Part shown: in pieces, positions 8,017 to 39,446 of the stretch
How positions within the stretch are numbered: position 1 is the stretch's first letter
Layout of the letters: each line of letters begins with the position of its first letter
Assembly (NCBI GenBank): GCA_003142035.1
Contig: PLOF01000087.1
Location: 1 to 40,379 of the forward strand
Source of the DNA: Candidatus Dormiibacterota bacterium
GTDB taxonomy: Bacteria > Chloroflexota > Dormibacteria > Aeolococcales > Aeolococcaceae
Direction: 5' to 3'
DNA: 40,379 bases
The notes under the pieces: generated by a model
Databases searched by the model: none
What the model saw: the letters and a program-made list of their open reading frames with translations, nothing else
What the model was told of the DNA's origin: nothing
Position numbers and translations under genes: made by a program

Positions 8017-8748
8017 ATGCGCCGAGCGCCGATGATCATTCGCAATGTTCTGAGCGATCAGGTCAAGGATTACCTCGTCACGGCGATCCTTGCCGGTGAG
8101 TTTCCCCCTGGGTCTCGGATCATCGAGACCCGGGTGGCGCGGCACCTTGGCGTGAGCCAGGGCCCCGTGAGAGAGGCATTGCGGGACCTTGAGGCGCTCG
8201 GCCTGATCGACAGCACCCCGTACCTGGGAGCACGCGTCCGGCAGCCGCACAAGGCGGAGCTGCTCGAGGCCTACGACGTTCGAGCCGTGCTCGAGTCGTT
8301 TGGAGCTCGACTGGCGATGCCGCGGCTGTCGGACGCCGACCTCCTTGATCTGGAGGGTTACGTCACCGCCATGCAGCAGGCCGCCCGAAACGGCGACGAG
8401 AACGAGCAGGCGCGAATCGACGTGGTCTTCCACAGCCGGATGGTCGCGATTTCGGGAAACGAGGTGCTCCAACGCCTCTGGCGCTACCTGGAGCCGGTTT
8501 CCCGGACTCACATCACCTACATCCTTCCCGGCGTTGACGCGGAGATGATCTCCGGCCTCCACCTGCCCATCCTCACGGCTCTCCGCGACCGGGATGCGGC
8601 ATCCGCCGATCAGGCCATCCACGATCACTTCCGGATCGCCGGTTCGATGTTCGATTCCCTGTTCGTGGAGCGGCCGGCTTCCGAGGCCGCCCCACCGCGG
8701 AGCGGGCAGGGCCTCCACGGGGCGACACCGCGTGAGGCCCTTTCGTGA
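8017..8748 (+). CDS. GntR family transcriptional regulator, FCD type
   Basis: DNA-binding regulator of 243 aa. Residues ~8-75 form the winged helix-turn-helix with the family signature PPGSRIIETRVARHLGVSQG followed by PVREALRDLEALGLI. Residues ~85-215 form the all-helical FCD ligand-binding domain, which usually senses a carboxylic or sugar acid through a metal held by Asp/His residues (family knowledge; VVFHSRMV and the HDHF region supply candidates). ATG at 8017 is 10 nt after the PEP-utiliser stop. The stop overlaps the next start (GTGA at 8745-8748), so it is co-transcribed with the molybdenum hydroxylase. It most likely controls its own operon, possibly through the palindrome at 6124-6141. 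Confidence 0.93.
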   Translation: MRRAPMIIRNVLSDQVKDYLVTAILAGEFPPGSRIIETRVARHLGVSQGPVREALRDLEALGLIDSTPYLGARVRQPHKAELLEAYDVRAVLESFGARLAMPRLSDADLLDLEGYVTAMQQAARNGDENEQARIDVVFHSRMVAISGNEVLQRLWRYLEPVSRTHITYILPGVDAEMISGLHLPILTALRDRDAASADQAIHDHFRIAGSMFDSLFVERPASEAAPPRSGQGLHGATPREALS

Positions 8749-9227
8749 TCGACCAGGCCGGCGCCGTTCGCATCGAGCTCACGGTCAACGGGCGCCAGCG
8801 CCCCCTCGAAGCATCGCCGCATCAGTCACTGCTCAGTCTGCTTCGTGATGACCTGGGGCTGACCGGTACCAAGGCGTGCTGTCTGGTCGGTGAGTGCGGA
8901 GCGTGCACGGTGAGCCTGAACGGCCGGATCGTGGATTCGTGCCTCATCCTGGCCGTCGAAGCCGACGGCGCCGAGCTCACCACCATCGAGGGACTGGCCG
9001 CGGACGGTCCCCTGACCTCGCTGCAGCGGGCCTTCCTGGAGGAGGGCGCCGCCCAGTGCGGCTACTGCACCCCCGGCCAGGTGATGGCCGCCCGCGACCT
9101 GCTGGGGCGGATACCCCATCCCACCAAGGCCGAGGTCCAGGAGGGGATGGGCGGCAACCTCTGCCGCTGCGGCTGCTACTACCAGATCACCGAGGCGGTG
9201 CTCGGGGCCGCTGCGGCTGCCGATTGA
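8745..9227 (+). CDS. 2Fe-2S small subunit of a xanthine dehydrogenase-family hydroxylase
   Basis: Electron-transfer subunit, 160 aa, the usual size for CoxS-type proteins. The plant-type [2Fe-2S] cluster ligands are C46, C51, C54 and C66 (TKACCLVGECGACTV...DSC). The second, helical [2Fe-2S] domain has C105, C108, C140 and C142 (QCGYCTPGQ, GNLCRCGCYYQ). The first cluster motif has Cys-Cys where Gly-Cys is usual, a small variation. The GTG start overlaps the GntR stop, and its own TGA overlaps the ATG of the large subunit at 9227. No FAD-binding medium subunit is encoded nearby, so electrons probably pass directly to an external acceptor, as in isoquinoline- or nicotinate-type enzymes (inference). 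Confidence 0.95.
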   Translation: MIDQAGAVRIELTVNGRQRPLEASPHQSLLSLLRDDLGLTGTKACCLVGECGACTVSLNGRIVDSCLILAVEADGAELTTIEGLAADGPLTSLQRAFLEEGAAQCGYCTPGQVMAARDLLGRIPHPTKAEVQEGMGGNLCRCGCYYQITEAVLGAAAAAD

Positions 9228-11512
9228 TGAGCGGGCAGATCGGGGTTTCGGCAGAGCGGGTCGGCGGGCCTGCGCGCGTCACCGGTGCCTACCAGTACGT
9301 GGGCGACATTCGCCTGGCGGATGTCCTTCATGTGAAGCTCGTCACCCTCCCCTGCGCCCACGCCCGAATCCGCAGCATCGACGTCAGCGCCGCCGAGCGC
9401 CTTCCCGGTGTCCGGTTGGTGATGACGGCCGCGAGCCTACCCCAGCCGGTGCCACGATTCGGCCCCCAGTTCCAGGACCGGCCGGTGCTGGCCGTCGACG
9501 AGACCAAATACCACGGCGAGCCGGTGGCGGCGGTTGCCGCCGATACCGAGGATGCCGCCGAGGCGGGTGCCCGCCTGGTTCGGATCGACTACCTGGAGCT
9601 GCCGCCCATCCTCAGCGTGGCCGCGGCCCTGGCTCCCGGCGCTCCGCTGGTGCAGGACCCGGAGCTCCGCCCCGGGGACCCGCTCGCGGAAACCAACGTC
9701 CTGCGTGAGCACCCGGTCAGTTGGGGGGACGTGGCCGGGGCTGTCAGCGACCTCGTCGTCGAGGGCACCTACACGTTCCCCATGGTGACCCAGTTCGCCA
9801 TCGAGCCCCACGGCTTCATGGCCGCCCCGGACGGCGACGGTGTCCTGATCTGGAGCTCGATCCAGCATCCCTACTGGCTGCAGAAGATCATCGCCGAGAT
9901 CCTTGGACTGCCGCTCGCGAAGGTCAGGGTTCTGGCTCCCGATCCGGGTGGAGCTTTCGGTGGCAAGCAGCACACCAAATTCGAGCCGCTCGTCGCCTTC
10001 ATAGCGCTGCGGACCGGCCGGCCCGCTCGCCTCATCCTCACCCTGGAGGAGACGTTCCAGGCAGTGCGGCGGATGTCGGCCGAGGTCCGTGTCCGGACCG
10101 GATTCCTCTCGGACGGCACCATCACCTTTCGGGAGGTGGAAGCGGACTATCTGCTGGGAGCGTACGCGGACATCGCCGATCGGGCGGCCAGCAAGGGCAG
10201 CCATATCTCCTGCGGCCCCTATCGCGTCCCGGCGGCGCGCATCGTGGCGAGGAGCATCCTCTCGCACACCCCACCGGCGACCGCCTTCCGTGGCTTCGGA
10301 GCGCCCCAGCCGAACTGGGCGGTCGAGTCGAACATGGATGATGCGGCGCGAGCGCTTGGGCTCGACCCCGTGGAGCTGCGCCTTCGCAACCTGGCTCGCA
10401 GGGGAGAGGAGTTCATACCGCACGACACCACCGTCGACGGCGACTGGGAGCAGACGATCCGCCGGGCCGCGGAGCTGATCGGATGGGGAACGCCGTTGCC
10501 GGCGGGTCGCGGACGCGGCGTCGCCCTCGGCGTCAAGTCCGGGCCCACGACCGGCCTCTCGTACGCCACCGTGCGGCTCCTGGCCGATGGCAGCGTCATC
10601 CTCTACTCGGGCACGTCGGACATGGGCCAGGGATCGCGCACGCTCTTCGCCCAGATCGCGGCCGAGGAGCTGGGCGTCCCGATCGATCGGATCACAGTGG
10701 TGATGGGCGATACGGCCGTGGTCCCCTACGACCAGCAGACATCGGCGAGCCGCTCGACGGTGCTGATGGGGAACGCCGTCCTCCAGGCGTGCAGGGAGAT
10801 CCAGGCCAAGGTGAGGGCCATGGCGGCCCGCCTCCATGGGATCAGCGAGACGGCCATCGTCGTCGAGCGCGGCATCGTCCGGCTGCCCGACGGCCCGGTG
10901 ACGATCGTTGAGATCCTGAAGCCTGGGCTGGGGAGCCTCGGCGGGGAGGTGATCGGCAACGGCGAGAGCCGAAAGGAGGCCGAGCCCGGCCATCCACTGA
11001 GTGGAAGTGCCGCCTTCTACGAGTTCAACTGCACCGCCGTCGAGGCTGAGGTCGACGAGGATACCGGCAACGTCGCCATCGTGCGCCACGTCACCGTGTC
11101 GGACGTGGGCAAGGCGATCAACCCGCTCCAGGTCCGCGGCCAGGATGAGGGTGCCGCGATCCAGGGTCTCGGCCACACCTTCATGGAGCATTACATCTTC
11201 GACGAGTCCGGGCGAATCCGAAACCTGGGGGCGATCGATTACCGGATCCCGACCAGCATGGACCTGCCCGTTGAGCTGCAGAGCGACATCGTCGAGAACG
11301 CCGATGGCCCCGGTCCCTACGGCGCCAAGGGGATGAGCGAAGGCGCGCTGATCTGCACCGCGGCAGCGGTGGCGGCAGCGATCCGCGATGCCACCGGAGT
11401 CGTGATCCGTGACCTGCCCCTCACCCCGGAGCGGGTCTGGAAAGCACTCTCGGAACGACCACTAGCCACTGCCGCGGCCCACGAAGTCGCCCAGAGGAGG
11501 GTTCCAGGATGA
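9227..11512 (+). CDS. Molybdenum hydroxylase large subunit (xanthine dehydrogenase/aldehyde oxidase family)
   Basis: Catalytic molybdopterin subunit, 761 aa. The N-terminal a/b hammerhead starts with VGGPARVTGAYQYVGDI. The molybdopterin-binding regions show GGAFGGKQ (about residue 241) and GTSDMGQGSRTLFAQIA. Near the C-terminus GPYGAKGMSEGA (~residue 695-706) carries the catalytic Glu in the position of the family motif GAKGxGE, with an unusual Met-Ser before it. Such enzymes hydroxylate purines, N-heterocycles or aldehydes with water as the oxygen source. It overlaps its small subunit and the downstream cyclase gene (ATGA at 11509), so the three form one translationally coupled unit. The substrate is not readable from the sequence. 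Cofactor would come from the mod/moa/moe genes at 31.5-39.3 kb. Confidence 0.94.
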   Translation: MSGQIGVSAERVGGPARVTGAYQYVGDIRLADVLHVKLVTLPCAHARIRSIDVSAAERLPGVRLVMTAASLPQPVPRFGPQFQDRPVLAVDETKYHGEPVAAVAADTEDAAEAGARLVRIDYLELPPILSVAAALAPGAPLVQDPELRPGDPLAETNVLREHPVSWGDVAGAVSDLVVEGTYTFPMVTQFAIEPHGFMAAPDGDGVLIWSSIQHPYWLQKIIAEILGLPLAKVRVLAPDPGGAFGGKQHTKFEPLVAFIALRTGRPARLILTLEETFQAVRRMSAEVRVRTGFLSDGTITFREVEADYLLGAYADIADRAASKGSHISCGPYRVPAARIVARSILSHTPPATAFRGFGAPQPNWAVESNMDDAARALGLDPVELRLRNLARRGEEFIPHDTTVDGDWEQTIRRAAELIGWGTPLPAGRGRGVALGVKSGPTTGLSYATVRLLADGSVILYSGTSDMGQGSRTLFAQIAAEELGVPIDRITVVMGDTAVVPYDQQTSASRSTVLMGNAVLQACREIQAKVRAMAARLHGISETAIVVERGIVRLPDGPVTIVEILKPGLGSLGGEVIGNGESRKEAEPGHPLSGSAAFYEFNCTAVEAEVDEDTGNVAIVRHVTVSDVGKAINPLQVRGQDEGAAIQGLGHTFMEHYIFDESGRIRNLGAIDYRIPTSMDLPVELQSDIVENADGPGPYGAKGMSEGALICTAAAVAAAIRDATGVVIRDLPLTPERVWKALSERPLATAAAHEVAQRRVPG

Positions 11513-16657: not shown

Positions 16658-19117
16658 GTGACCAAGCTGCTTACGATCGAACCGGAGGAAGCACTCTCTC
16701 AGGATGTCCTCCGCTTCGGCGACATCCCGGTCAACGCATACCAGCGAACGGTGAAAGAGGAGCGTTCCCGGTATTCGACCGAAGACTTTCTGGACATATG
16801 GCGGGACATGTGCGCCATCCGGGAATTCGAGACGGTCATCCAGGAGCTCAAGCTCAAGGGAGCGTATCGAGGGGTCACGTACAACCACGCCGGCCCTGCT
16901 CACCTCTCCATCGGGCAGGAGGCGGCGGCGGTGGGCATGGCCTTCTCGCTGACCCCCGACGACCACATCTTCGGATCCCACCGCAGCCATGGGGAGATCC
17001 TGGCCAAGGGCTTTTCCGCGATCCGCCAGCTGAGCGAGGAGCAGCTCCTCGAGATCATGCGCAGCTACCGGGACGGGGCGGTGCTCGGTCCGGTGGAGAA
17101 GGGGTTCCAGGGATCGGTGCGCGAACTGGCGATCCGCTTCTTCGTGTACGGCGCGTACAGCGAGATCTTCGCTCGTGAAACCGGCTTCAACCGCGGGCTG
17201 GGCGGGTCGATGCACGCCTTCTTTGCGCCCTTCGGGATCTACCCCAACAACGCCATCGTGGGAGGTTCCGGATCGGTGGCTCCCGGAGCCGCCCTCTTCA
17301 AGCGGGTCAACCGGCGGCCGGGCATCGTGGTGGCCAACCTCGGCGATGCCTCGTTCGGCTGTGGCCCGGTGTGGGAGGGGATCACCTTCGCGAGCATGGA
17401 CCAGTATCGCAAGCTCTGGGACCAGGCTCTGGGCGGGGGTCTTCCGATCATCTTCAACTGCATGGACAACTTCTACGGGATGGGTGGCCAGCCCAACGGG
17501 GAGACCATGGCCTGCGAGTTCATCGCCCGGATCGGTGCGGGGGTGAACCCGGAGGCGATGCACGCCGAACGGGTCAACGGCTACGACCCGATGGCGGTGA
17601 TCGACGCCTTCCAGCGCAAGAAGGAGTTGCTGCTGCAGGGGAGGGGCCCAGTCCTCCTCGACACCATCACCTACCGCTTCAGCGGCCACTCGCCGTCCGA
17701 TGCCTCGAGTTACCGGTCCAAGGAGGAGCTCGAGCGCTGGGAGGCGGTCGATTCGATCAGCTCCTTCCGGCTGCGCCTCGAGGAGGCCGGCGCCGTGAGC
17801 GCCGACGCCCTCGACCAAGCGCGGCGCGAAATCCAGGAGACGGTGTTCGCGATGTTCCAGCTGGCCGCCGACCTGGAAGCGTCTCCGCGCCTGCAGCTCG
17901 ACTCGGAGCTGATCGGCGAGGTGATGTTCTCCAACCGGCACGTCGAGAGCTTCGATGCTCGCCCCCCCGAGCTGCTGCAGGACCTCGCCGACAACCCCCG
18001 GGTCAAGCAGATCCAAGGCAAGGTGCGCACCGGCTTCCAGGACGGCAAGCCGGTGCCCAAGATGAAGGTGTTCAACATCCGCGATGCCATCTTCGAGGCC
18101 ATGCTCCATCGCTTTGCCATCGACCCCACGATGGTCGCCTTCGGTGAGGAGAACCGGGATTGGGGCGGCGCCTTCGCGGTCTACCGCGGCCTCACCGAGG
18201 CCCTGCCCTACCACCGGCTCTTCAACTCGCCGATTTCGGAGGCGGGCATCGTCGGGGCGGCGGTGGGCTATGGCATGGAGGGAGGCCGGGCGGTCGCGGA
18301 GCTGATGTACGCCGACTTCATGGGTCGGGCCGGCGACGAGCTCTTCAACCAGCTGTCGAAGTGGCAGGCGATGTCCGCCGGGTTGCTGACCCTGCCGGTG
18401 GTGGTGCGCATCTCCGTCGGCGCCAAGTACGGAGCCCAGCATTCGCAGGACTTCACCGCGCTCACCAACCACATCCCCGGCCTCAAGGTGGTCTACCCGG
18501 TCACCCCCTATGACGCCAAGGGGATGATGAACGCCGCCCTCGCCGGGACCGATCCGGTGCTCTTCTTCGAGAGCCAGAAGCTCTATGACATCGGCGAGAT
18601 GTTCCAGACTGCCGGCGTTCCCGAGGGCTATTACGAGATCGAGCTCGGACTGCCCTCCGTCAAGCGCACCGGCGCGGACCTGACCATGATCACCCTCGGG
18701 CCGGCCCTGTACACGGCGATCGCCGCCGCCGACCAGCTCCTCGAGCGCTTCGACATCTCCACCGAGGTCATTGACCTCCGCTCAGCCAATCCCCTGGATT
18801 ACGGCCCCCTGGTGGAGTCGGTGCGCAAGACCGGCAAGGTCCTGCTCGTCTCGGAGGCGGTGGAGCGGGGCGGCGTGATGCAGACGGTTGCCTCCACCTT
18901 GACCCAGCTCTGCTTCGATGATCTCGACGGACCGCCGGTTGTGGTGGGTTCCAGGAACTGGATCACGCCCGCCCCCGAGCTGGAAGAGATGTTCTTCCCG
19001 CAGCCGGCCTGGCTGCTGGATGCCGTCCACGAGCAGATCCTTCCGCTTCGGGGATACCGTCCGACCGGTAACCGCACTCGAGGCGAGCTGCTCCGGCGGG
19101 CTCGCCATGGCGTGTAG
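16658..19117 (+). CDS. 2-oxo acid dehydrogenase complex, E1 alpha-beta fusion
   Basis: Thiamine-diphosphate-dependent decarboxylase of the complex, 819 aa. E1 alpha occupies about residues 35-400: [25 protein letters not shown], and the ThDP/Mg motif from G229 ([13 protein letters not shown]...). E1 beta occupies about 470-810: [38 protein letters not shown], and a C-terminal transketolase domain. Alpha and beta are usually separate in acetoin, branched-chain and Gram-positive pyruvate complexes; fused forms are known but less common. The alpha half also has a longer segment after the HG motif than usual. GTG at 16658 starts 12 nt after E3. Gene order E2-E3-E1 is the reverse of the usual one. 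The substrate 2-oxo acid is unknown. Confidence 0.92.
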
Positions 19118-29728: not shown

Positions 29729-30388
29729 TTATTGGCCCTCCATCATCCTGGTCAGCCCATCTATGACCAGGTCAAGGCCGAATTCGAACTCGTCGTCGTG
29801 GCCCGGTTGACCGTGCTGTTCGATGTGCAGGGCCAGGTCGGGGTACTGGTCGCTCGGGAGTTCCTCGACGAAGTTGGCCGCCACGCTGACGTCCCCCTCC
29901 GATGCGAACTGGTGGCCTATCTGCCAGAGCGTGAAGCCCAGGACGTGGCTGTCCAGCACGTGGTAAGCGCGATAGGTCAGATCGGGCGTTAACCCGGCCC
30001 GGCGGAGGCTGGCCAAGAGGGCGTCCATATAACGCGTGCGCGCCGCTCGGGCGGCGCGCCCGATGGGCACCATCATCATCAGGCTGCACGCCCAGGGGTG
30101 GCGCAGGAGAGCCTCGTGAGCCGATATGGCAGACCGTCGGACGGCTTGGCCCCAGGGCTCGGTCGCCGCCGGCAGTTCGATCTCGGTCATGACGAGGCCG
30201 ACCATTCCGTCAAGGATGTCGTCCTTATTCGCCACGTGCCTGTAGAGGGACATGGCTTCGACCCCGAGGATGTGGCCGAGCTTGCGCATGCTCAGCGACT
30301 CGATCCCGGCATCGTCCGCCAGAGAGACAGCGGCGCGCAGGACCCGCGTTCGGTTCAACGGTTCCCGAACCTCGCCGGTTGCGTTCAC
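29729..30388 (-). CDS. TetR family regulator (TetR_C_1 type)
   Basis: A 219-aa repressor. The N-terminal HTH (about residues 11-58) reads LNRTRVLRAAVSLADDAGIE followed by SLSMRKLGHILGVEAMSLYRHVANKDDILDG, and the C-terminal half matches the TetR_C_1 ligand-binding domain (LLASLRRAGLTPDLTYRAYHVLDSHV...EFEFGLDLVIDGL). GTG at 30388 is the only start that keeps the HTH; the AAGGAGG on this strand lies 17 nt upstream, further than ideal. It is divergent from the dehydrogenase at 30480, with two dyads in between, so it very probably represses that gene and itself. Confidence 0.92.
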   Translation of the reverse strand: MNATGEVREPLNRTRVLRAAVSLADDAGIESLSMRKLGHILGVEAMSLYRHVANKDDILDGMVGLVMTEIELPAATEPWGQAVRRSAISAHEALLRHPWACSLMMMVPIGRAARAARTRYMDALLASLRRAGLTPDLTYRAYHVLDSHVLGFTLWQIGHQFASEGDVSVAANFVEELPSDQYPDLALHIEQHGQPGHDDEFEFGLDLVIDGLTRMMEGQ

Positions 30389-30410
30389 CCGAGTTGTCGC
30401 GGTCGCCTCC

Positions 30411-30453
30411 TTGACAGGCTTACAGTGTATGGCTTATGGTTTACGGCGTAAGC
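30411..30453 (+). promoter_or_regulatory. Promoter and paired TetR operators of the MDR gene
   Basis: The -35 is TTGACA (30411-30416) and the -10 is TATGGT (30435-30440, 18-bp spacer) or TTATGG (30434-30439, 17 bp). Two dyads flank the -10: CTTACAGTGTATG (30419-30431) and GTTTACGGCGTAAGC (30439-30453), centres 21 bp apart, about two helical turns. Both contain TTAC...GTA half-sites, the style of TetR_C_1 operators. Confidence 0.7.
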
Positions 30454-30479
30454 TTAGTTCATTGTTCCAAGGAGAGTCA

Positions 30480-31446
30480 ATGAAGGCCATCGTAAGTAGC
30501 AAGTACGGGCCACCAGAGGTCCTGCGGCTGCAGGAGGTCGACATGCCGGTGATGAGCGCCGACGGCGTCCTCGTGCGGGTCCTCGCCGCGTCTGTCAACC
30601 CCCTGGACTGGCTGTCCATGAGAGGGGAGCCCCTCCTCATGCGCCCGATGACGGGGTTCCCCCGACCCAAGAGGACCGTTCCCGGCGTGGACGTAGCCGG
30701 CGTGGTGGAGCGGGTCGGGGCCAACGTGACCGGCATGCAGCCCGGCGACGAGGTGTTCGGATGGTGCTGGGGGACGTTCGCCGAGTACGTCTGCGGCGGC
30801 GAGAAGGATTTGGTGCCCAAGCCGGAGGGCCTCAGCTTCACTGAAGCAGCCGCGGTCCCTCTTGCCGGCCAGACGGCCCTTCAGGCGCTGCGCGACCACG
30901 GGAAGCTGCAGCCAGGCCAGCGCGTGCTGGTGAACGGTGCTGCCGGAGGCGTGGGCACCTTCGCGGTGCAGGTGGCCAAGGCGCTGGGCGCTCACGTGGT
31001 CGGCGTGTGCAGCACGAGGAACGTGGAGATGGTCCGGTCGATAGGCGCCGACGAGGTTGTCGACTACACGGCGGAGGACTTCACGCACAAGAAGGAGGGA
31101 TACGACCTGGTCTTGGACACGGTCGGGAACCGTTCCCTCTCCCGCATGAGGCGCGCCCTGGCACCGCATGGCACCCTCTTGGTTGTCGGGGCGGGAGGGG
31201 GCCGGCTGCTAGGGCCAGTGAGCCAGATGCTTCGGGCGACAACTGCTCTCCCCCTTTGTCGGCCAGAGCCTGGTCCCGTTCATGGCCAGGCAGAGCAGGG
31301 AAGACCTCCTCACCCTCCGGCAGATGATCGAAGAGGGCAAGGTCAAGCCTGTCGTCGAGCGGACGTACTCACTTGCCGAAGCGGCAGAGGCCGTCCGCCA
31401 CGTCGGGGCACATCATGCACGCGGCAAGGTTGTACTCAGCCTCTGA
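30480..31446 (+). pseudogene. NAD(P)-dependent medium-chain dehydrogenase/quinone oxidoreductase, frameshifted
   Basis: A zinc-less MDR protein: MKAIVSSKYGPPEVLRLQEV, VPGVDVAGVVERVGANV and the nucleotide motif VNGAAGGVGTFAVQVAKALGA are intact up to about codon 254 (MLRATT). The reading frame then breaks near 31240-31246. The expected ending (LLSPFVGQSLVPFMARQ ... EEGKVKPVVERTYSLAEAAEAVRHV) continues one base later in the next frame and stops at 31446. One extra base in the CAACT stretch explains it, either a genuine inactivating insertion or a sequencing error. Without it the protein would be 321 aa, the normal size. ATG at 30480 has AAGGAGAG upstream. Its promoter and TetR control look well preserved, which suggests the lesion is recent or artefactual. 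Confidence 0.85.
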
Positions 31447-31571
31447 TGGAGCTCCGCACCTTCAAGGTGTTCGTTCCGGCGAAGGCACCCGGGCTGCCCG
31501 CTCCTGCACGAGCTCCTCACCTTCGAGATTCTGGCCAGGGCCACACGGAAAGGTGTTTCAGCCGGGCTGCA

Positions 31572-32549
31572 CTAGCCGGCGCTCAGGGCAGTTCCCGGCT
31601 CCTCGGCGGTGGCGAATACCGGGGCTCCGGGGGCAGCGAACCACATCAGCTCGCCGATGGTCGCCGACCGGTCGGACCGGCAGCGAAAGCGGCCTCGCCA
31701 GCGCCCCTCCGCCTCGAGCTCGAGCTCCATCCTCGCTCCCTGGGGGACCACCTGGACCACTCGTGCCGAGATCTCCCCGCCAGCCTCGGCGCCGACCGGA
31801 TACACCCGGTCGGGGTGCAGGGCCATGGTCTGGGAGCCGGAGCTGAGCCAGCCCCGGTAGCCGACCAGCTCGGCCACCTCGCGGGTGGCGGGACGGAGCA
31901 CGAGCTCGTGGGGGTCGCCCACCTGGAGGATCTGGCCGCGATGGAGAACGGCCAGGCGGTGGGCGAAGGCCTGGGCCTCCTCCAGCTGGTGGGTGACCAG
32001 GATGGCGGCGGTGGCGGAATCCTCCAGCTCGCGGCGCAGCAGGTCGAGCAGCTCCAGGCTGAGGGGACGGTCCAGGGAGTTGAAGGGCTCGTCCAAGCAG
32101 AGCAGATCCACCTTGGTCTGGAGTGCCCGCGCCAAGGACACGCGCTGGGCCTCGCCGCCCGAGAGACCCCGGGGCCGGGCTCCCAGGAGAGCTCCCAGCC
32201 CCAGCCTCTCGCCGGCAACCCGGGCTGCGGCCGGGGTGACGCCCGGCGCGTAACCGATGTTCTGCAGCACGGTGAGGTGCGGGAAGAGCCCCGGGTTCTG
32301 ACGGAGCAGCCCGACGCCCCGCCGCCCGGGGCGCAGGTCGGCGGCGGGGAAGCCGGCCGAGCTGAGCCGTCGCTCCCCGAGCCGGATCTCCCCTCGGGTC
32401 AGCCGGAGCAGTCCCGCAAGCGCCTCCACCGTAGTCGTCTTGCCCGCTCCAGAGCGGCCCAGCAGGGCCACCCGCTCTCCGGCCGGCACGTGCAGATCGA
32501 CGCGGACACTGAACTCCCGCCTGGCTACCTCAAAGTCGGCGACGAGCAT
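31572..32549 (-). CDS. modC: Molybdate/tungstate ABC transporter, ATP-binding protein
   Basis: ATPase subunit of 325 aa. Walker A is LLGRSGAGKTTT, the signature is LSGGEAQRVSLARAL, Walker B is LLCLDEP, and the switch His is in LVTHQLEEA. After about residue 235 a C-terminal TOBE-like region follows (MALHPDRVYPVG...VVQVVPQGARMELELEAEG), as in ModC/WtpC. ATG at 32549 is chosen because GGAG lies 5 nt upstream; ATG at 32570 is possible. It overlaps modB by 20 nt, implying translational coupling in the order modA-modB-modC. Beside molybdopterin genes, molybdate or tungstate is the likely cargo; sulfate is less likely. Confidence 0.9.
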   Translation of the reverse strand: MLVADFEVARREFSVRVDLHVPAGERVALLGRSGAGKTTTVEALAGLLRLTRGEIRLGERRLSSAGFPAADLRPGRRGVGLLRQNPGLFPHLTVLQNIGYAPGVTPAAARVAGERLGLGALLGARPRGLSGGEAQRVSLARALQTKVDLLCLDEPFNSLDRPLSLELLDLLRRELEDSATAAILVTHQLEEAQAFAHRLAVLHRGQILQVGDPHELVLRPATREVAELVGYRGWLSSGSQTMALHPDRVYPVGAEAGGEISARVVQVVPQGARMELELEAEGRWRGRFRCRSDRSATIGELMWFAAPGAPVFATAEEPGTALSAG

Positions 32550-33348
32550 GGGCACTCCAGAGATAGGCACCGACGGGCAGGGGCAGGGCCACCACCAGGA
32601 GCACCAGCGCGTAGGGCAGCGCTGATCTGAGCCCGGTCTCCTGTAGCGTGACCCAGATCTGCATGGGGAGGCCGAACGGGTGGTAGGCGATGATGAGGAC
32701 CGCGCCGAAGGCGCCCATGGCTCGGGCCCAGGTCACCGCCAGCGCGTTGGCCAGCCCGGGGGCGGCCAGCGGCGCGGTCACCCGCCTCCAGGTGCGCCAG
32801 CGGCCGTCCCCGAGGAGTGCCGCGGCCTGCTCCAGCGCCGGATCGACGGTGGCGAAGGCGGCCATGGCGCCCAGCACGTAGAAGGGCACGGATTCGTAGA
32901 TCTCCGCCACGACCAGGGCGAAGAAGGTGTCCGAGGCGGTCAGGTTGAGGTGACTGAGGGCGGCCCCGATGGGGGTGGCCGGCCCGACCATGAAGATCAA
33001 CAGCAGGCCGATCACGAGCGGCGGGGTGAGCAGTGGGAGGAGTACTCCGGCCTCCCAGATCCGGGGAAAGGGCAGCCGGCCCCGGGCCATCAGGTAGGCG
33101 AGCGGGGTGCCCAGCAGCAGGATCACCGCCAGAGCCACCAGCGAGGCCGTCACCGAGGTGAGCAGCGGTTGGAATGCGCCCGGCTGGCTCAGGGCGCTCA
33201 CCACGGAAGCCGGGGTGAGGTGGGCCAGCAGGGTGATCAACGGCCCCAGCAGAGCCACCCAGACGATCAGCGCTCCGACCACTGCGGCGCCGGTGCTCAC
33301 CCTCACACCGGCACCGTGCATCGTCATCGAAGCTGGCGGGTTGTTCAA
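32530..33348 (-). CDS. modB: Molybdate/tungstate ABC transporter, permease
   Basis: A 272-aa integral membrane protein with about six hydrophobic helices, the first around residues 20-42 (VVGALIVWVALLGPLITLLA). The EAA loop that docks the ATPase is recognisable: LEQAAALLGDGRWRTWRRVT then APLAAPGLANALAVTWARAMGAFGAVL, close to ModB/WtpB. The TTG at 33348 overlaps the modA stop (TTGA), a coupling arrangement, though an ATG seven codons downstream is also possible. Neither has a strong ribosome-binding site. Middle gene of modABC. Confidence 0.88.
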   Translation of the reverse strand: MNNPPASMTMHGAGVRVSTGAAVVGALIVWVALLGPLITLLAHLTPASVVSALSQPGAFQPLLTSVTASLVALAVILLLGTPLAYLMARGRLPFPRIWEAGVLLPLLTPPLVIGLLLIFMVGPATPIGAALSHLNLTASDTFFALVVAEIYESVPFYVLGAMAAFATVDPALEQAAALLGDGRWRTWRRVTAPLAAPGLANALAVTWARAMGAFGAVLIIAYHPFGLPMQIWVTLQETGLRSALPYALVLLVVALPLPVGAYLWSAHARRRL

Positions 33349-34651: not shown

Positions 34652-35056
34652 TCAGCTCTTCTCGATCATCATCGAGGTCGCTTTCACCAGGGCCACAACC
34701 TCGTCCCCCTCGCGAAGCCCGAGGTCCTCGACGGAGTCACGGGTTATCGCCGCAGTGAGCAGGAAGGGACCGGCTTCGATCTCCACCAGCGCCATCACCC
34801 CGTCGACCTCGATCGAGAGCACGCGGCCCAGCATGCGGTTGCGAGCGGAGAGATGCGCTCCCGTCCGGTGGCGTTCCGGAACTGCCCTGAGGCGCTGAAT
34901 CTCCGCCGCGGACACCAGGCGCCGATTCTCCGCGTCGCGATGGGTGCGCAACTTCCCGGCGCGATCCCAGCGACGCAGAGTGTCCACGCTGACCCCGATC
35001 GCCCGCGCCGCCTCGCCCAGAGTGAGATCCTTCTCCCCGGTCACGGGCGCAGTCAT
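34652..35056 (-). CDS. Molybdenum-binding regulator: MerR/excisionase-type HTH plus TOBE (Mop) domain
   Basis: A 134-aa two-domain protein. Residues ~10-57 form a MerR/excisionase-like HTH (LTLGEAARAIGVSVDTLRRW, DRAGKLRTHRD). Residues ~70-134 form a TOBE/Mop molybdate-binding domain (ARNRMLGRVLSIEVDGVMAL, VALVKATSMMIEKS). This architecture is known in regulators of molybdate uptake and cofactor genes that lack the ModE fold. ATG at 35056 is chosen; ATG at 35068 adds four residues. No ribosome-binding site is obvious, so translation may be leaderless. Divergent from moaA (123 nt apart) and upstream of modABC on the same strand, it most likely represses modABC and perhaps moaA when molybdate is plentiful (inference). 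Confidence 0.9.
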   Translation of the reverse strand: MTAPVTGEKDLTLGEAARAIGVSVDTLRRWDRAGKLRTHRDAENRRLVSAAEIQRLRAVPERHRTGAHLSARNRMLGRVLSIEVDGVMALVEIEAGPFLLTAAITRDSVEDLGLREGDEVVALVKATSMMIEKS

Positions 35057-35179
35057 AGCACACGCCATAGGACCGTGGGTGGTGGAACCGGTGTCCCGAG
35101 CGGGGATCTGACGGCGCTCCGGGACGGCTCGGCTATGATCGATTCTCGGAGTTGAGCCGCTACCTGGGGTGAGCCCACG

Positions 35180-36259
35180 ATGAGGACTGCGACCGCGGCT
35201 CGTCGCGCCCTGACCGGCGGAGACGGCGCGTTGCCGCGGGACGGTGAAGGTCGTCCTGCACCTCTCCACGATTCTCTGGATCGCCCGCTGCGCGACCTGC
35301 GCATCTCGGTCACCGATCGCTGCAACTTCCGCTGCCCCTACTGCATGCCCCGGGACCACTATGGTCCGGGCCACCGATTCCTTCCCGCCGGTGAGCAGCT
35401 CAGCGCCGGCGAGATCGTTCGGCTGGCCGGCATCTTCGTCTCCCTGGGTGTGACCAAGATCCGCCTCACCGGGGGAGAGCCGCTGCTCCGTCCCGACCTC
35501 GTCGAGATCGTGCGCCGGCTGCACGGGCTCGGCATCCCGGACTTGGCCCTGACCACCAACGGAGCCTTGCTCCGTCGCCTGGCCGGTCCCCTTGCAAGCG
35601 CTGGGCTTCGCCGCCTCACCGTCAGCCTCGACTCCCTCGACCCGAAGATCTTCGCCGCGATGAGCGATTCACGGATTGATCTGGCCGAGGTGCTGGCGGG
35701 GATCTCCGCCGCCCAGGAGGCCGGCCTCCATCCCATCAAGCTCAACTGCATGGTCCGGCGAGGAGTGAACGAGGGCAGCATCCTCGACCTGGTTGATTTC
35801 GCCCGCTCCGCCGGGCTGACCCTCCGGTTCATCGAGTACATGGACGTGGGGTCGTCGAACGGCTGGCGGCGCGAGGAAGTGGTCACGGCTCAGGAGATCC
35901 TGGACGTGGTGAGCCGCAGGCACCCGCTGCTGGAGGAGGCTCGCCAGCCGAGTGCCGTCGCCCGGGGTTACCGGTTTGCCGACGGACCCGGGGAGGTGGG
36001 TGTCATCGCCTCGGTGAGCCGGCCTTTCTGCGGCGACTGCACCCGAGCCCGGCTCGGCTCGGACGGGCACCTTTACACCTGCCTCTTCGCGGTCTCCGGG
36101 CTGGATCTTCGTGGGGCGCTCCGGGGCGGCGCCGGCGACGGTGAGCTGCGTCAGCTGGTGAGCTCCTGCTGGCAACGGCGCGCTGACCGCTACTCCGAAG
36201 TGAGAGCGTCCCTCACCCCGTCGTTACGACGGATCGAGATGTCCTACATCGGGGGGTGA
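35180..36259 (+). CDS. moaA: GTP 3',8-cyclase (MoaA)
   Basis: Radical-SAM enzyme for the first step of molybdenum cofactor synthesis, 359 aa. The SAM cluster motif is C48-x3-C52-x2-C55 in TDRCNFRCPYC. The C-terminal substrate cluster is present in FCGDCTRARLGSDGHLYTC. The chain ends in the conserved SYIGG, whose GG tail is needed in MoaA. The N-terminal ~30 residues are a non-conserved extension, so a start further in is possible, but DSLDRPLRDLRISVTDRC contains no good alternative. Its 3' end overlaps that of mogA (convergent) by 36 nt. Confidence 0.95.
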   Translation: MRTATAARRALTGGDGALPRDGEGRPAPLHDSLDRPLRDLRISVTDRCNFRCPYCMPRDHYGPGHRFLPAGEQLSAGEIVRLAGIFVSLGVTKIRLTGGEPLLRPDLVEIVRRLHGLGIPDLALTTNGALLRRLAGPLASAGLRRLTVSLDSLDPKIFAAMSDSRIDLAEVLAGISAAQEAGLHPIKLNCMVRRGVNEGSILDLVDFARSAGLTLRFIEYMDVGSSNGWRREEVVTAQEILDVVSRRHPLLEEARQPSAVARGYRFADGPGEVGVIASVSRPFCGDCTRARLGSDGHLYTCLFAVSGLDLRGALRGGAGDGELRQLVSSCWQRRADRYSEVRASLTPSLRRIEMSYIGG

Positions 36260-36748
36260 CGTCCCGCCGTGAGCGGTGTCGCCGGCGAGCAGCCTCAGAG
36301 CGTGGGGCAGCGCCTTCCAGACTGTCCTGAGCCCTTGGTCGACGGCTGCGGGGCTGCCCGGGAGCGCGACCACGAGCCGGCCCTGGCTGACCCCCACCAC
36401 CTGTCGGGACAGCATGGCGTGGGGTGTGTTGCGAAGACCCTCCCGGCGCATCGCTTCGGCCATGCCCGGGACCTCGTAGTCGAGAAGGGGTGAGATCGCC
36501 TGTGGCGTCACGTCGCGGGGCCCGAGGCCGGTGCCGCCGCTGAGCACGACCAGGTGCGCCCGCGCCAAGACGGCCCCCAGCGCTGCCCGGATGGCCTCGA
36601 CCTCGTCCGGCACCAGCCGGCGGTCGGTGATGTCGGCAGGCAGTTCCGCGAGCCGGGCGACGATCAGGTCACCGCTCGGATCGTGCGTGGTCTCGCCCCG
36701 TCCCCGGCTGTCGCTCACGGTGATGACCGCGGCTCGCCAGCTCATCAT
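36224..36748 (-). CDS. mogA: Molybdopterin adenylyltransferase (MogA/MoaB family)
   Basis: A 174-aa enzyme that adenylylates molybdopterin before metal insertion. It begins VITVSDSRGRGETTHDPSG and has the nucleotide-binding LSGGTGLGPRDVTPQA motif and the ALPGSPAAVDQGLRTVW ending. ATG at 36748 overlaps the stop of the MoaD-E-C fusion gene (ATGA). Last gene of the minus-strand operon moeA, moaDEC, mogA. MogA and MoaB cannot be told apart reliably by eye. Confidence 0.9.
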   Translation of the reverse strand: MMSWRAAVITVSDSRGRGETTHDPSGDLIVARLAELPADITDRRLVPDEVEAIRAALGAVLARAHLVVLSGGTGLGPRDVTPQAISPLLDYEVPGMAEAMRREGLRNTPHAMLSRQVVGVSQGRLVVALPGSPAAVDQGLRTVWKALPHALRLLAGDTAHGGTSPPDVGHLDPS

Positions 36749-38031
36749 GGGCGGTGGAGGCTGCCACTGCGGCCACCGTTCTTGCTGAGCAGTCGCACCG
36801 ACTCGACGGTCATCCAAGGATCCGCGGACTTCAGCATGTCGATGACGGTGAGGCCGGCCACCGTGGCGGCGGTCAGAGCCTCCATCTCCACACCGGTCGA
36901 TCCAGCGCAGCGAGCAGAGCTCACGATATGGACCCCGGGTGGGGACTCCTCCACGGTGATCTGCACATCCAGGTGGGTCAGGGGAAGCGGATGGCAGAGG
37001 GGAATCAGTTCGGGGGTGTGCTTGGCGCCCATGATCCCGGCGAGGCGGGCGGCGGCGAGCACGTCGCCCTTCGGTGAGCCGTGGCGCAGGACGGCCAGCG
37101 TGGCCGGGTCGCTGAAGCGCACCACCGCCTCGGCCAGGGCGGCGCGGAGCGTGGGCGGCCGGTCACTGACGTCCACCATGAGGAAGGCGCCGGATGGGTC
37201 CAGGTGGGAGAGGAGGGGGGGAGCAGGCGCAGGCATGGGGTCGTGACCGAGAGGGGCCGTATCCGCCGCCCCCTCCCCGCGGGGATCGCCGGATCCGGCA
37301 AGAAGAGCGAGCCCGCCCTGCGACGGTGCGCCATTGAGGTCGCCGGCGCCCACCCAGCGTGTCCCATCCGGGTGATGCTCGCGCTTCCACATCGGCAGAT
37401 CGCGCTTGAGAGCTTCCACCGCCTCCGAACAGGCCAGCAGGGCGGCCCGCCGATGCGGCGCCGCCGCGACCACGGCCACGCTGACCTCACCCACCAGCAG
37501 CGAACCGACACGGTGGACCAGGGCCATGCCACTCAGGCCATGCCGCTCCGCCACATCCGCGGCGATGCGGCGCAGCTCTCGGTCCGCCATCGGCTGGTAG
37601 GTCTCGTAGTCGAGCCCCCGCACCGGGCGGCCCTCACTCGTGTTGCGCACCGCACCGACGAAGGCCGCGATCGCGCCGGCGCCGTCGCCTCGCACCTCCG
37701 CCACGAGACGGCTGACGTCGATGGGGTCGGGCACCAGCGCCACGCGCAGTCGGGGCCCCGCCTCCTCGTCCACGGACCCGCCGGCAACGGGAGGCATGAA
37801 CGCCACCTCGTCGCCGGGCTCGACCGGCGTCTGCCAGTCGCAGTACGCAAAGTTGCGGGCCGGCCTGACCCGCCCCTGCGGATCCCGAAAGTCCGGATGG
37901 TCGTGGGTCACCAGCGACCAGAGGTCGAGGACCGTCGTGACCTTTTCCCGGACCACGATCTCCCTCCCGAGGCGCTCTCGCAGGGCACCGAAGCAGAGGA
38001 CGCGCACCGCATCCGGCGGGCTCCCGCTCAT
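36745..38031 (-). CDS. MoaD-MoaE-MoaC triple fusion protein
   Basis: A single 428-aa protein with three molybdopterin-synthesis domains. Residues 7-85 are MoaD (VRVLCFGALRERLG...FMPPVAGG), whose Gly84-Gly85 tail is internal. Residues ~95-232 are MoaE, with Lys209/Lys216 in KRDLPMWKREHHPDG and TRWVG. A Pro/Gly/Ala-rich linker follows, and ~273-425 are MoaC (LSHLDPSGAFLMVDVSDRP, LIPLCHPLPLTHLDV, VEMEALTAATVAGLTVIDML, KSAD). MoaD needs a free C-terminal GG to carry sulfur, so cleavage after Gly85 is expected; the MoaD-MoaE fusion MoaX of mycobacteria is known to be processed this way. The addition of MoaC is unusual. ATG at 38031 starts 4 nt after moeA. No frameshift is visible. MoeB is not in the window. 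Confidence 0.93.
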   Translation of the reverse strand: MSGSPPDAVRVLCFGALRERLGREIVVREKVTTVLDLWSLVTHDHPDFRDPQGRVRPARNFAYCDWQTPVEPGDEVAFMPPVAGGSVDEEAGPRLRVALVPDPIDVSRLVAEVRGDGAGAIAAFVGAVRNTSEGRPVRGLDYETYQPMADRELRRIAADVAERHGLSGMALVHRVGSLLVGEVSVAVVAAAPHRRAALLACSEAVEALKRDLPMWKREHHPDGTRWVGAGDLNGAPSQGGLALLAGSGDPRGEGAADTAPLGHDPMPAPAPPLLSHLDPSGAFLMVDVSDRPPTLRAALAEAVVRFSDPATLAVLRHGSPKGDVLAAARLAGIMGAKHTPELIPLCHPLPLTHLDVQITVEESPPGVHIVSSARCAGSTGVEMEALTAATVAGLTVIDMLKSADPWMTVESVRLLSKNGGRSGSLHRP

Positions 38032-38035
38032 CGGA

Positions 38036-39271
38036 TCACCCGAGTTCCAGACCGGTGAGCAGGGTCCCGGCTGGAGCCCGCGACATCCCGACGGGCACGA
38101 TGAGCAGGGCCTCGGCGTCGGTGAGCGAGCGCAGCATGGATGACCTCTGGCCACCACTCAGGGTGGCGATCGGAATGCCGTCGCCGGCGTCGGTGAGGCG
38201 CACGCGCAGGTACGTCTCCAGGTCCGCGGGGGTGTCCAGGTCCTCCCCGGCTCGCAGCGCGACGTGGCGGCGATGGACCTGGGAGGCCCCCTGGAGCGCG
38301 AGCAGCGCGGGCCTCCCGAAAAGTTCAAAGGTCACCGCGGCGCTGACCGGGTTCCCCGGCAGCCCGAGCATGGGCGTGTCGCCGATCCGGCCGATGAGGA
38401 GCGGCTTGCCGGGACGCATGGCGATGCGCCATGCCTCGATCGATCCCAGTTCACCGACCACCTGCCTCACGTAGTCGTACCGGCCAACGCTGACACCCCC
38501 GCTGGTGATGATCAGATCACACCCGCTGGCACCATCCAGCCGCTCGCGCAGAAGGTCGGGAGAGTCCCCGACAATGCCGAGGGCGATCACCTCGCCACCC
38601 GCTTCTGAGACGGCGGCGGCCAGCATCGCCGCATTGCTGTCCGTGACCTGGTGGGGCGCCGGCATCGCTCCCACGGGCACCAGCTCATCGCCTCCCGACA
38701 GGACCGCGACCCGAGGACGGCGCCAGACCCAGACGGAGGAGCCTCCCACGGCAGCGCAGGCCGCGATGTCCACCGGACGCAGCCGGCGACCCGGGGGGAG
38801 CATGACCTTCCCCGATTCGAGGTCTTCCCCTGCATGCCGCACATGTTGTCCTGGTCGTGGCGCGACGAGAAGGAGAACGCTGCCCGGCCCATCCGGACGG
38901 GTGTCCTCGATCGGCACGACAGCGTCGGCGCCGAGGGGCACCGCCGCCCCGGTGGCGATGGCGGCCACGGTGCCGCGAGCGAGCGTTCCGATGGCCGCCC
39001 CCGCCCGGGCGTCACCGGCCACGGGGAGCCGCGCCAGGGTCGCGGGCGAGGCGGTGGCGCACTCATCCGCGCGGACCGCAAAGCCGTCCATCTCCGAGTT
39101 GTCACAGCCGGGGAGCGCCCATCCGGCGATCACCGGACGTGACAGGACCCGACCCCGCGCCCGGTCGAGGGGCACGAGCTCCTCAGCCGTGGTGCGTGAT
39201 GCAACCAGGCCGAGCAGTCGCTCCTGGGCCAGGGTCACCGGCATCAGCTGACCCACAGGGTTCCCCGGCAT
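38036..39271 (-). CDS. moeA: Molybdopterin molybdotransferase (MoeA)
   Basis: A 411-aa enzyme that inserts molybdate into adenylylated molybdopterin. Signature regions: NSEMDGFAVRA, GAAVPLGADAVVPIED, AVLSGGDELVP, DSNAAMLAAAV, IITSGGVSVGRYDYV and LPGNPVSAAVTFELF. ATG at 39271 is used; ATG at 39244 gives 402 aa and is equally plausible, neither having a strong ribosome-binding site. First gene of moeA-moaDEC-mogA. The 175 nt before it, up to the nitrilase gene at 39447, show no gene or clear promoter. Confidence 0.94.
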   Translation of the reverse strand: MPGNPVGQLMPVTLAQERLLGLVASRTTAEELVPLDRARGRVLSRPVIAGWALPGCDNSEMDGFAVRADECATASPATLARLPVAGDARAGAAIGTLARGTVAAIATGAAVPLGADAVVPIEDTRPDGPGSVLLLVAPRPGQHVRHAGEDLESGKVMLPPGRRLRPVDIAACAAVGGSSVWVWRRPRVAVLSGGDELVPVGAMPAPHQVTDSNAAMLAAAVSEAGGEVIALGIVGDSPDLLRERLDGASGCDLIITSGGVSVGRYDYVRQVVGELGSIEAWRIAMRPGKPLLIGRIGDTPMLGLPGNPVSAAVTFELFGRPALLALQGASQVHRRHVALRAGEDLDTPADLETYLRVRLTDAGDGIPIATLSGGQRSSMLRSLTDAEALLIVPVGMSRAPAGTLLTGLELG

Positions 39272-39446
39272 GTGCTCGGCCGGCCAGCCTGACGTTCTCT
39301 CGGTTTCGGCCCCATGCTTATCGGCTTCATGGTAGAGCTCCCACCGCCCGCGGTGGCTCTCCGACCTCCGTCGACGCCGCGGCACGTCTCCCCGCGGATA
39401 GGATCGTCGTGGTGCTCGCCTACCACACCTTCACCATCTTGGCGAC

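Follow-up and report, generated by a model that had tools for sequence, protein, structure and literature searches.

In a soil bacterium of the Dormibacterota, the molybdenum cofactor proteins MoaD, MoaE and MoaC are encoded as one long protein, the product of a gene that we call moaDEC (Table 1). It lies in a window of 40,379 nucleotides, the whole stretch of DNA that was analysed. We put at roughly two in three the probability that MoaDEC is a precursor, that a JAMM protease cuts it after Gly85, that the MoaD thus released is thiocarboxylated and MoaE-MoaC is kept as a two-step enzyme, and that the gene descends from a moaDE gene and a neighbouring moaC.

An earlier note on this DNA, made from the sequence alone, had read MoaD, MoaE and MoaC with their key motifs in a single frame, and the domain analysis bears this out. 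Pfam matches exceed their curated cut-offs for all three domains (ThiS/MoaD, 2.6e-11 at residues 11-85; MoaE, 5.4e-34 at residues 101-210; MoaC, 4.5e-47 at residues 285-420) and are far beyond chance. The MoaC part also passes two NCBIfam equivalog cut-offs (TIGR00581, 162.2 versus 141.5; NF006870, 182.6 versus 162). In the alignment to 1ekr its Lys321, Asp398 and Lys401 correspond to Lys51, Asp128 and Lys131 of E. coli MoaC, and a fold search returned the E. coli MoaC mutants K51A and D128A among its PDB matches. MoaC is a hexamer, assembled as a trimer of dimers. Within the MoaE domain, Arg129, His193, Arg194, Lys209 and Lys216 occupy conserved positions in PDB alignments. Lys209 and Lys216, which sit in ALKRDLPMWKRE and align across relatives and PDB chains, we take to be the two active-site lysines of MoaE, Lys119 and Lys126 in E. 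coli. The MoaD domain can be aligned over its full length with E. coli MoaD, and Gly84-Gly85 meets the C-terminal Gly-Gly of that protein (residue 81) and of human MOCS2A; weak MoaD-domain matches to HIV Nef and to globin chains (E above 0.05) were dismissed as chance. This Gly-Gly, buried in the chain as the earlier note had pointed out, is directly followed by Ser86 and then the MoaE domain.

Table 1. Position of moaDEC, its parts and the neighbouring cofactor genes in the window.
Feature	Position	Strand	Basis
moaDEC, MoaD-MoaE-MoaC fusion	36745..38031	-	428 aa, ATG start, single open frame without stop
MoaD (ThiS, beta-grasp) domain, residues 1-85, ending in Gly84-Gly85	37777..38031	-	Pfam PF02597
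Predicted cleavage site Gly85/Ser86	37774..37779	-	MoaX-type Gly-Ser junction; low pLDDT; separate moaD ends here in L006 and L042
MoaE domain, residues 93-232	37336..37755	-	Pfam PF02391; PDB alignments
MoaE-MoaC linker, residues 233-271	37219..37335	-	predicted disordered; frame kept
MoaC domain, residues 272-428	36748..37218	-	Pfam PF01967; alignment to 1ekr
moeA (molybdenum insertion)	38036..39385	-	MoeA_N, MoCF_biosynth, MoeA_C; directly upstream, same operon
mogA/moaB-like gene	36224..36817	-	MoCF_biosynth 5.7e-30; downstream of moaDEC
moaA (GTP 3',8-cyclase)	35180..36259	+	TIGR02666 1.5e-109, above cut-off; tail to tail with mogA-like gene

The boundaries of moaDEC fit a tight operon, since a few bases separate its ATG from the stop codon of moeA upstream and its own stop codon overlaps the ATG that is the likely start of the mogA-like gene (CCCATGATGAGC). 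The product of moaA makes the substrate of MoaC. A gene joining a MerR-type HTH to a TOBE domain of the molybdate-binding type (34652-35524, -) and a ModA/ModB/ModC-like transporter come next in the window; the MerR-TOBE protein is likely a regulator that responds to molybdate and differs from the ModE type. The same window holds a molybdenum enzyme at 8.7-11.5 kb, a [2Fe-2S] protein and a MoCoBD large subunit of the xanthine dehydrogenase/CO dehydrogenase type (8745-11512, +), beside a GntR/FCD regulator. Elsewhere, one 819-aa chain (16658-19117, +) combines E1 dehydrogenase and transketolase domains next to E2 and E3 genes and apparently unites the alpha and beta subunits of a 2-oxoacid dehydrogenase E1. 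One frame of the zinc alcohol dehydrogenase/quinone reductase family (30252-32630, +) matches that family only up to position ~243 of 325; the expected C-terminus resumes in another frame after a break near 31.2 kb, so this gene is frameshifted, by assembly error or as a pseudogene, and the 792-aa frame past the break runs antisense to the modB/modC-like genes.

Twelve related loci came from a genome collection, and the ones nearest the query lie mostly in Dormibacterota MAGs. Intact triple fusions occur in three other MAGs besides the window's own, with 91% (L002, G001), 80% (L008, G003) and, in another genus, 64% identity (L003, G018), and are confined to genera g1 and g13 among 110 genomes of the class. 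A sample of 400 genomes from the phylum contained the triple in the window's own genome only; elsewhere in that sample, among the matches listed, MoaD-MoaE and MoaC were hit as separate stretches. The 398 genomes from the phylum of L010 gave no strong fused match at 1e-52 in a search that had no positive control and scored few candidates per genome, so that this negative carries little weight. Among plasmid records no place covered 80% of the query, the best being from Acinetobacter with separate genes for D, E and MoaC-MoaB. Apparent breaks in L004 and L005 are stretches of N in the assembled sequence and were rejected as evidence of separate genes, as was a 651-aa MoeA-MoaD frame in L005, the product of an NN join. 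The broken copy in L006 is a real rearrangement, in which moaD is split off and MoaE-MoaC are still joined. The MAG with this copy (G002) holds two versions of the locus, L005 (contig C163, 89-90% identical to the window) and L006 (contig C252, 70%), either because the locus is present twice or because the bin is mixed.

Taken together, the relatives display four states of one gene order: a MoaD-MoaE fusion followed by moaC, which is the commonest (L007, L022-L029), three separate genes (L042), moaD followed by MoaE-MoaC (L006), and the triple. In L007 moaC begins at an ATG that overlaps the stop codon of moaDE. The locus with three genes (L042, G028:C72) comes from the same genus as L021, which has a MoaD-MoaE fusion. 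When MoaE and MoaC were concatenated for a tree, every locus that carries the E-C join fell into one group (support 89/93), with L006 inside it; this suggests, with moderate support, that the join arose once and that MoaD was later split off in L006. The moaDE and moaC pair of other Dormibacterota, with the same gene order and orthologous domains and with MoaC as a separate gene, is likely the precursor state; the triple would have arisen from such an ancestral pair by loss of the stop and start between the genes. All MoaD domains examined in the family retain Gly-Gly, whether or not they are fused. The separate moaD genes of L006 and L042 both have their stop directly after Gly-Gly (GGC GGC TAG and GGA GGA TAG), which marks the working C-terminus of MoaD and hence the cut site expected in the fused forms.

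Cleavage has precedents among MoaD-MoaE fusions. In M. tuberculosis MoaX the cut falls between Gly82 and Ser83; activity requires this cut, and the cut requires Gly81 (PMC4326299). Like MoaX (Rv3323c), MoaDEC carries MoaD and then MoaE in one chain with Gly-Gly followed by Ser at the junction, so the earlier comparison with MoaX-type fusions was apt. In Deinococcus radiodurans, where the only MoaD-MoaE pair of the genome is fused, the JAMM protease DR0402 cuts the fusion DR2607 (PMC8832034). By analogy with these systems, and given the two relatives that end moaD at Gly-Gly, cleavage after MoaD is most likely needed for function. The view that the protein must be cut thus draws strong support from homology; the alternative offered beside it, that sulfur transfer works differently, found none.

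In the working that we propose, a JAMM/MPN+ metalloprotease would cut the chain at Gly85/Ser86, and the freed MoaD would be adenylated and thiocarboxylated at Gly85 by a MoeB-rhodanese protein before handing its sulfur to the MoaE domain. MoaE and MoaC would stay joined through a disordered linker of ~40 residues and perform two successive steps, MoaC making cPMP and MoaE, with MoaD-COSH, turning cPMP into molybdopterin. The single product foreseen earlier therefore probably holds for the precursor, the mature forms probably being MoaD plus MoaE-MoaC. E. coli did not support MoaX activity (PMC3227635), and the fusion would accordingly probably fail to replace moaD and moaE there unless the processing protease is supplied.

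The window's genome is a MAG of 144 contigs that is 89.9% complete. Besides moaDEC, no second MoaE or MoaC was detected in it, so the MoaE and MoaC domains of the fusion are probably the working ones. A single Prok-JAB protein was detected (L049:3946-4482, 5.9e-23). Its JAMM motif, Glu plus H-x-H-x(7-10)-S-x-x-D, is intact (Glu59, H119-x-H121, HSHPDHPARPSQFD at 119), and it is desampylase-like at a score below the cut-off of that family. L050:3552-4730 encodes a MoeB that begins with a rhodanese domain and scores over the NF006444 cut-off. The only other ThiS-type protein detected is a stand-alone SAMP1-like protein, above cut-off and ending in VAGG (L051:2237-2509). JAMM, rhodanese-MoeB E1 and SAMP1-like protein together correspond to the components of a small-modifier system of archaeal type, here spread over three loci. 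As in D. radiodurans, then, the genome encodes a JAMM protein, its link to moaDEC being a prediction. The JAMM gene is not adjacent to moaDEC, and it could serve the SAMP1-like protein instead. Moreover, JAMM is found in 56 of 61 genomes of the clade, some of them without any match to the fusion. Co-occurrence was for this reason set aside as an uninformative test; such near-universal presence is weak evidence for moaDEC as the substrate and makes the protease assignment the weakest link of the model. One genome (G038) has a MoaD-MoaE match and no JAMM match, and there a different protease may be present, or the MAG may be incomplete.

How the chain is organized between its domains bears on what follows the first cut. 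The AF2 model of MoaDEC has three confident domains whose relative placement is undefined (pTM 0.44), and a fold search with this model matched MoaC and MoaE chains separately. The core of the MoaD domain has pLDDT mostly of 81-96 and residues 83-85 fall below 50, by which the cut site is probably exposed. Most of residues 232-274 also lie below 50, and this disordered stretch makes the linker of about 40 residues probably a flexible tether. Comparison of intact copies shows purifying selection on all three domains (Ka/Ks 0.15-0.19 for MoaD, 0.26-0.30 for MoaE, 0.18-0.23 for MoaC). The linker evolves fast (Ka/Ks 0.56-1.6), and its indels preserve the frame. Constrained domains around a fast linker kept in frame are the pattern of a genuine fusion whose tether is free of constraint.

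The same linker could also be cut. If both junctions were processed, after Gly85 and within residues 233-271, ordinary separate MoaD, MoaE and MoaC would result and the fusion would only couple their synthesis. With a linker predicted to be disordered and evolving at or near neutrality, its loss could be harmless, and MoaC is separately encoded in relatives. We nevertheless consider a double cut unlikely, for the linker has no conserved motif that would suggest a protease site, and six loci preserve the E-C frame through all indels, even L006 where D is split off. In the reading that we prefer, with MoaE-MoaC left joined, MoaE dimers and MoaC hexamers held in one chain might pass the unstable cPMP on directly, with the cut acting as a switch for sulfur transfer and setting equal amounts of the parts; this extension is tentative, and we judge it rather unlikely.

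Less probable still, by far, is that the fused MoaD is no sulfur carrier at all and that the SAMP1-like protein, present in the genome and ending in Gly-Gly, supplies MoaE in trans to an uncut chain. Against this speak the purifying selection on the fused MoaD with its Gly-Gly kept, its end-to-end alignment with E. coli MoaD, and the inactivity of uncleaved M. tuberculosis MoaX (PMC4326299). Equally improbable in our judgement is a free MoaC translated beside the fusion from an internal start at Met266: an in-frame ATG does stand at this codon, shortly before the usual MoaC start region, but no Shine-Dalgarno-like stretch precedes it (CCCCTCTCGGTCACGACCCC), and L003 and L006 have no Met at this position. 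Finally, an assembly error joining adjacent genes, which the earlier note had named as what would refute its reading, or a binning artefact can practically be discarded, because, although all copies come from draft MAGs and the nearby alcohol dehydrogenase looks frameshifted, the same open fusion is unbroken in the three other MAGs, giving four assemblies (91-64% identity) with linker indels in frame.

Fusions of these enzymes have evolved in several combinations. Of 33,957 bacterial genomes, 775 are reported to carry a MoaD-MoaE fusion, as do some archaea, and there are several instances of MoaC fused with MoaE or with MoaB (PMC11237513). MoaDEC resembles the MoaX type in having a MoaD domain that ends in Gly-Gly and stands N-terminal to MoaE, but MoaD and MoaE are not alone in its chain; the extra MoaC domain (285-420) makes it a MoaX variant and not a plain MoaX. 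Both MoaX and D. radiodurans DR2607 lack MoaC. M. tuberculosis encodes moaD and moaE separately as well as fused, whereas in the window's genome no MoaE or MoaC was detected outside the fusion. The MoaC-MoaE fusions of archaea and bacteria (cluster 625.2, PMC11237513) likewise join MoaC to the enzyme of the next step, but as described they have no MoaD in the chain. In the bifunctional MoaC-MoaB protein (NF002947; a 307-aa frame in the Acinetobacter locus L056) MoaC is again fused to a cofactor enzyme, the partner being MoaB, with MoaD and MoaE separate. In the open-access papers searched we found no report of MoaD, MoaE and MoaC in one chain; the two-part fusions MoaD-MoaE and MoaC-MoaE have each been published.

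MoaDEC leaves the known steps of the pathway unchanged and joins, in one gene, the last step of cPMP formation with the step of sulfur insertion. A ubiquitin-like domain here heads a polyprotein, much as in the ubiquitin precursors that are cut by deubiquitinases. Close relatives offer a natural series of fusion and fission (D/E/C, DE+C, D+EC and DEC), and this series, together with the two separate moaD genes that end exactly at Gly-Gly, makes cleavage-dependent activation and a possible channelling of cPMP testable with natural proteins.
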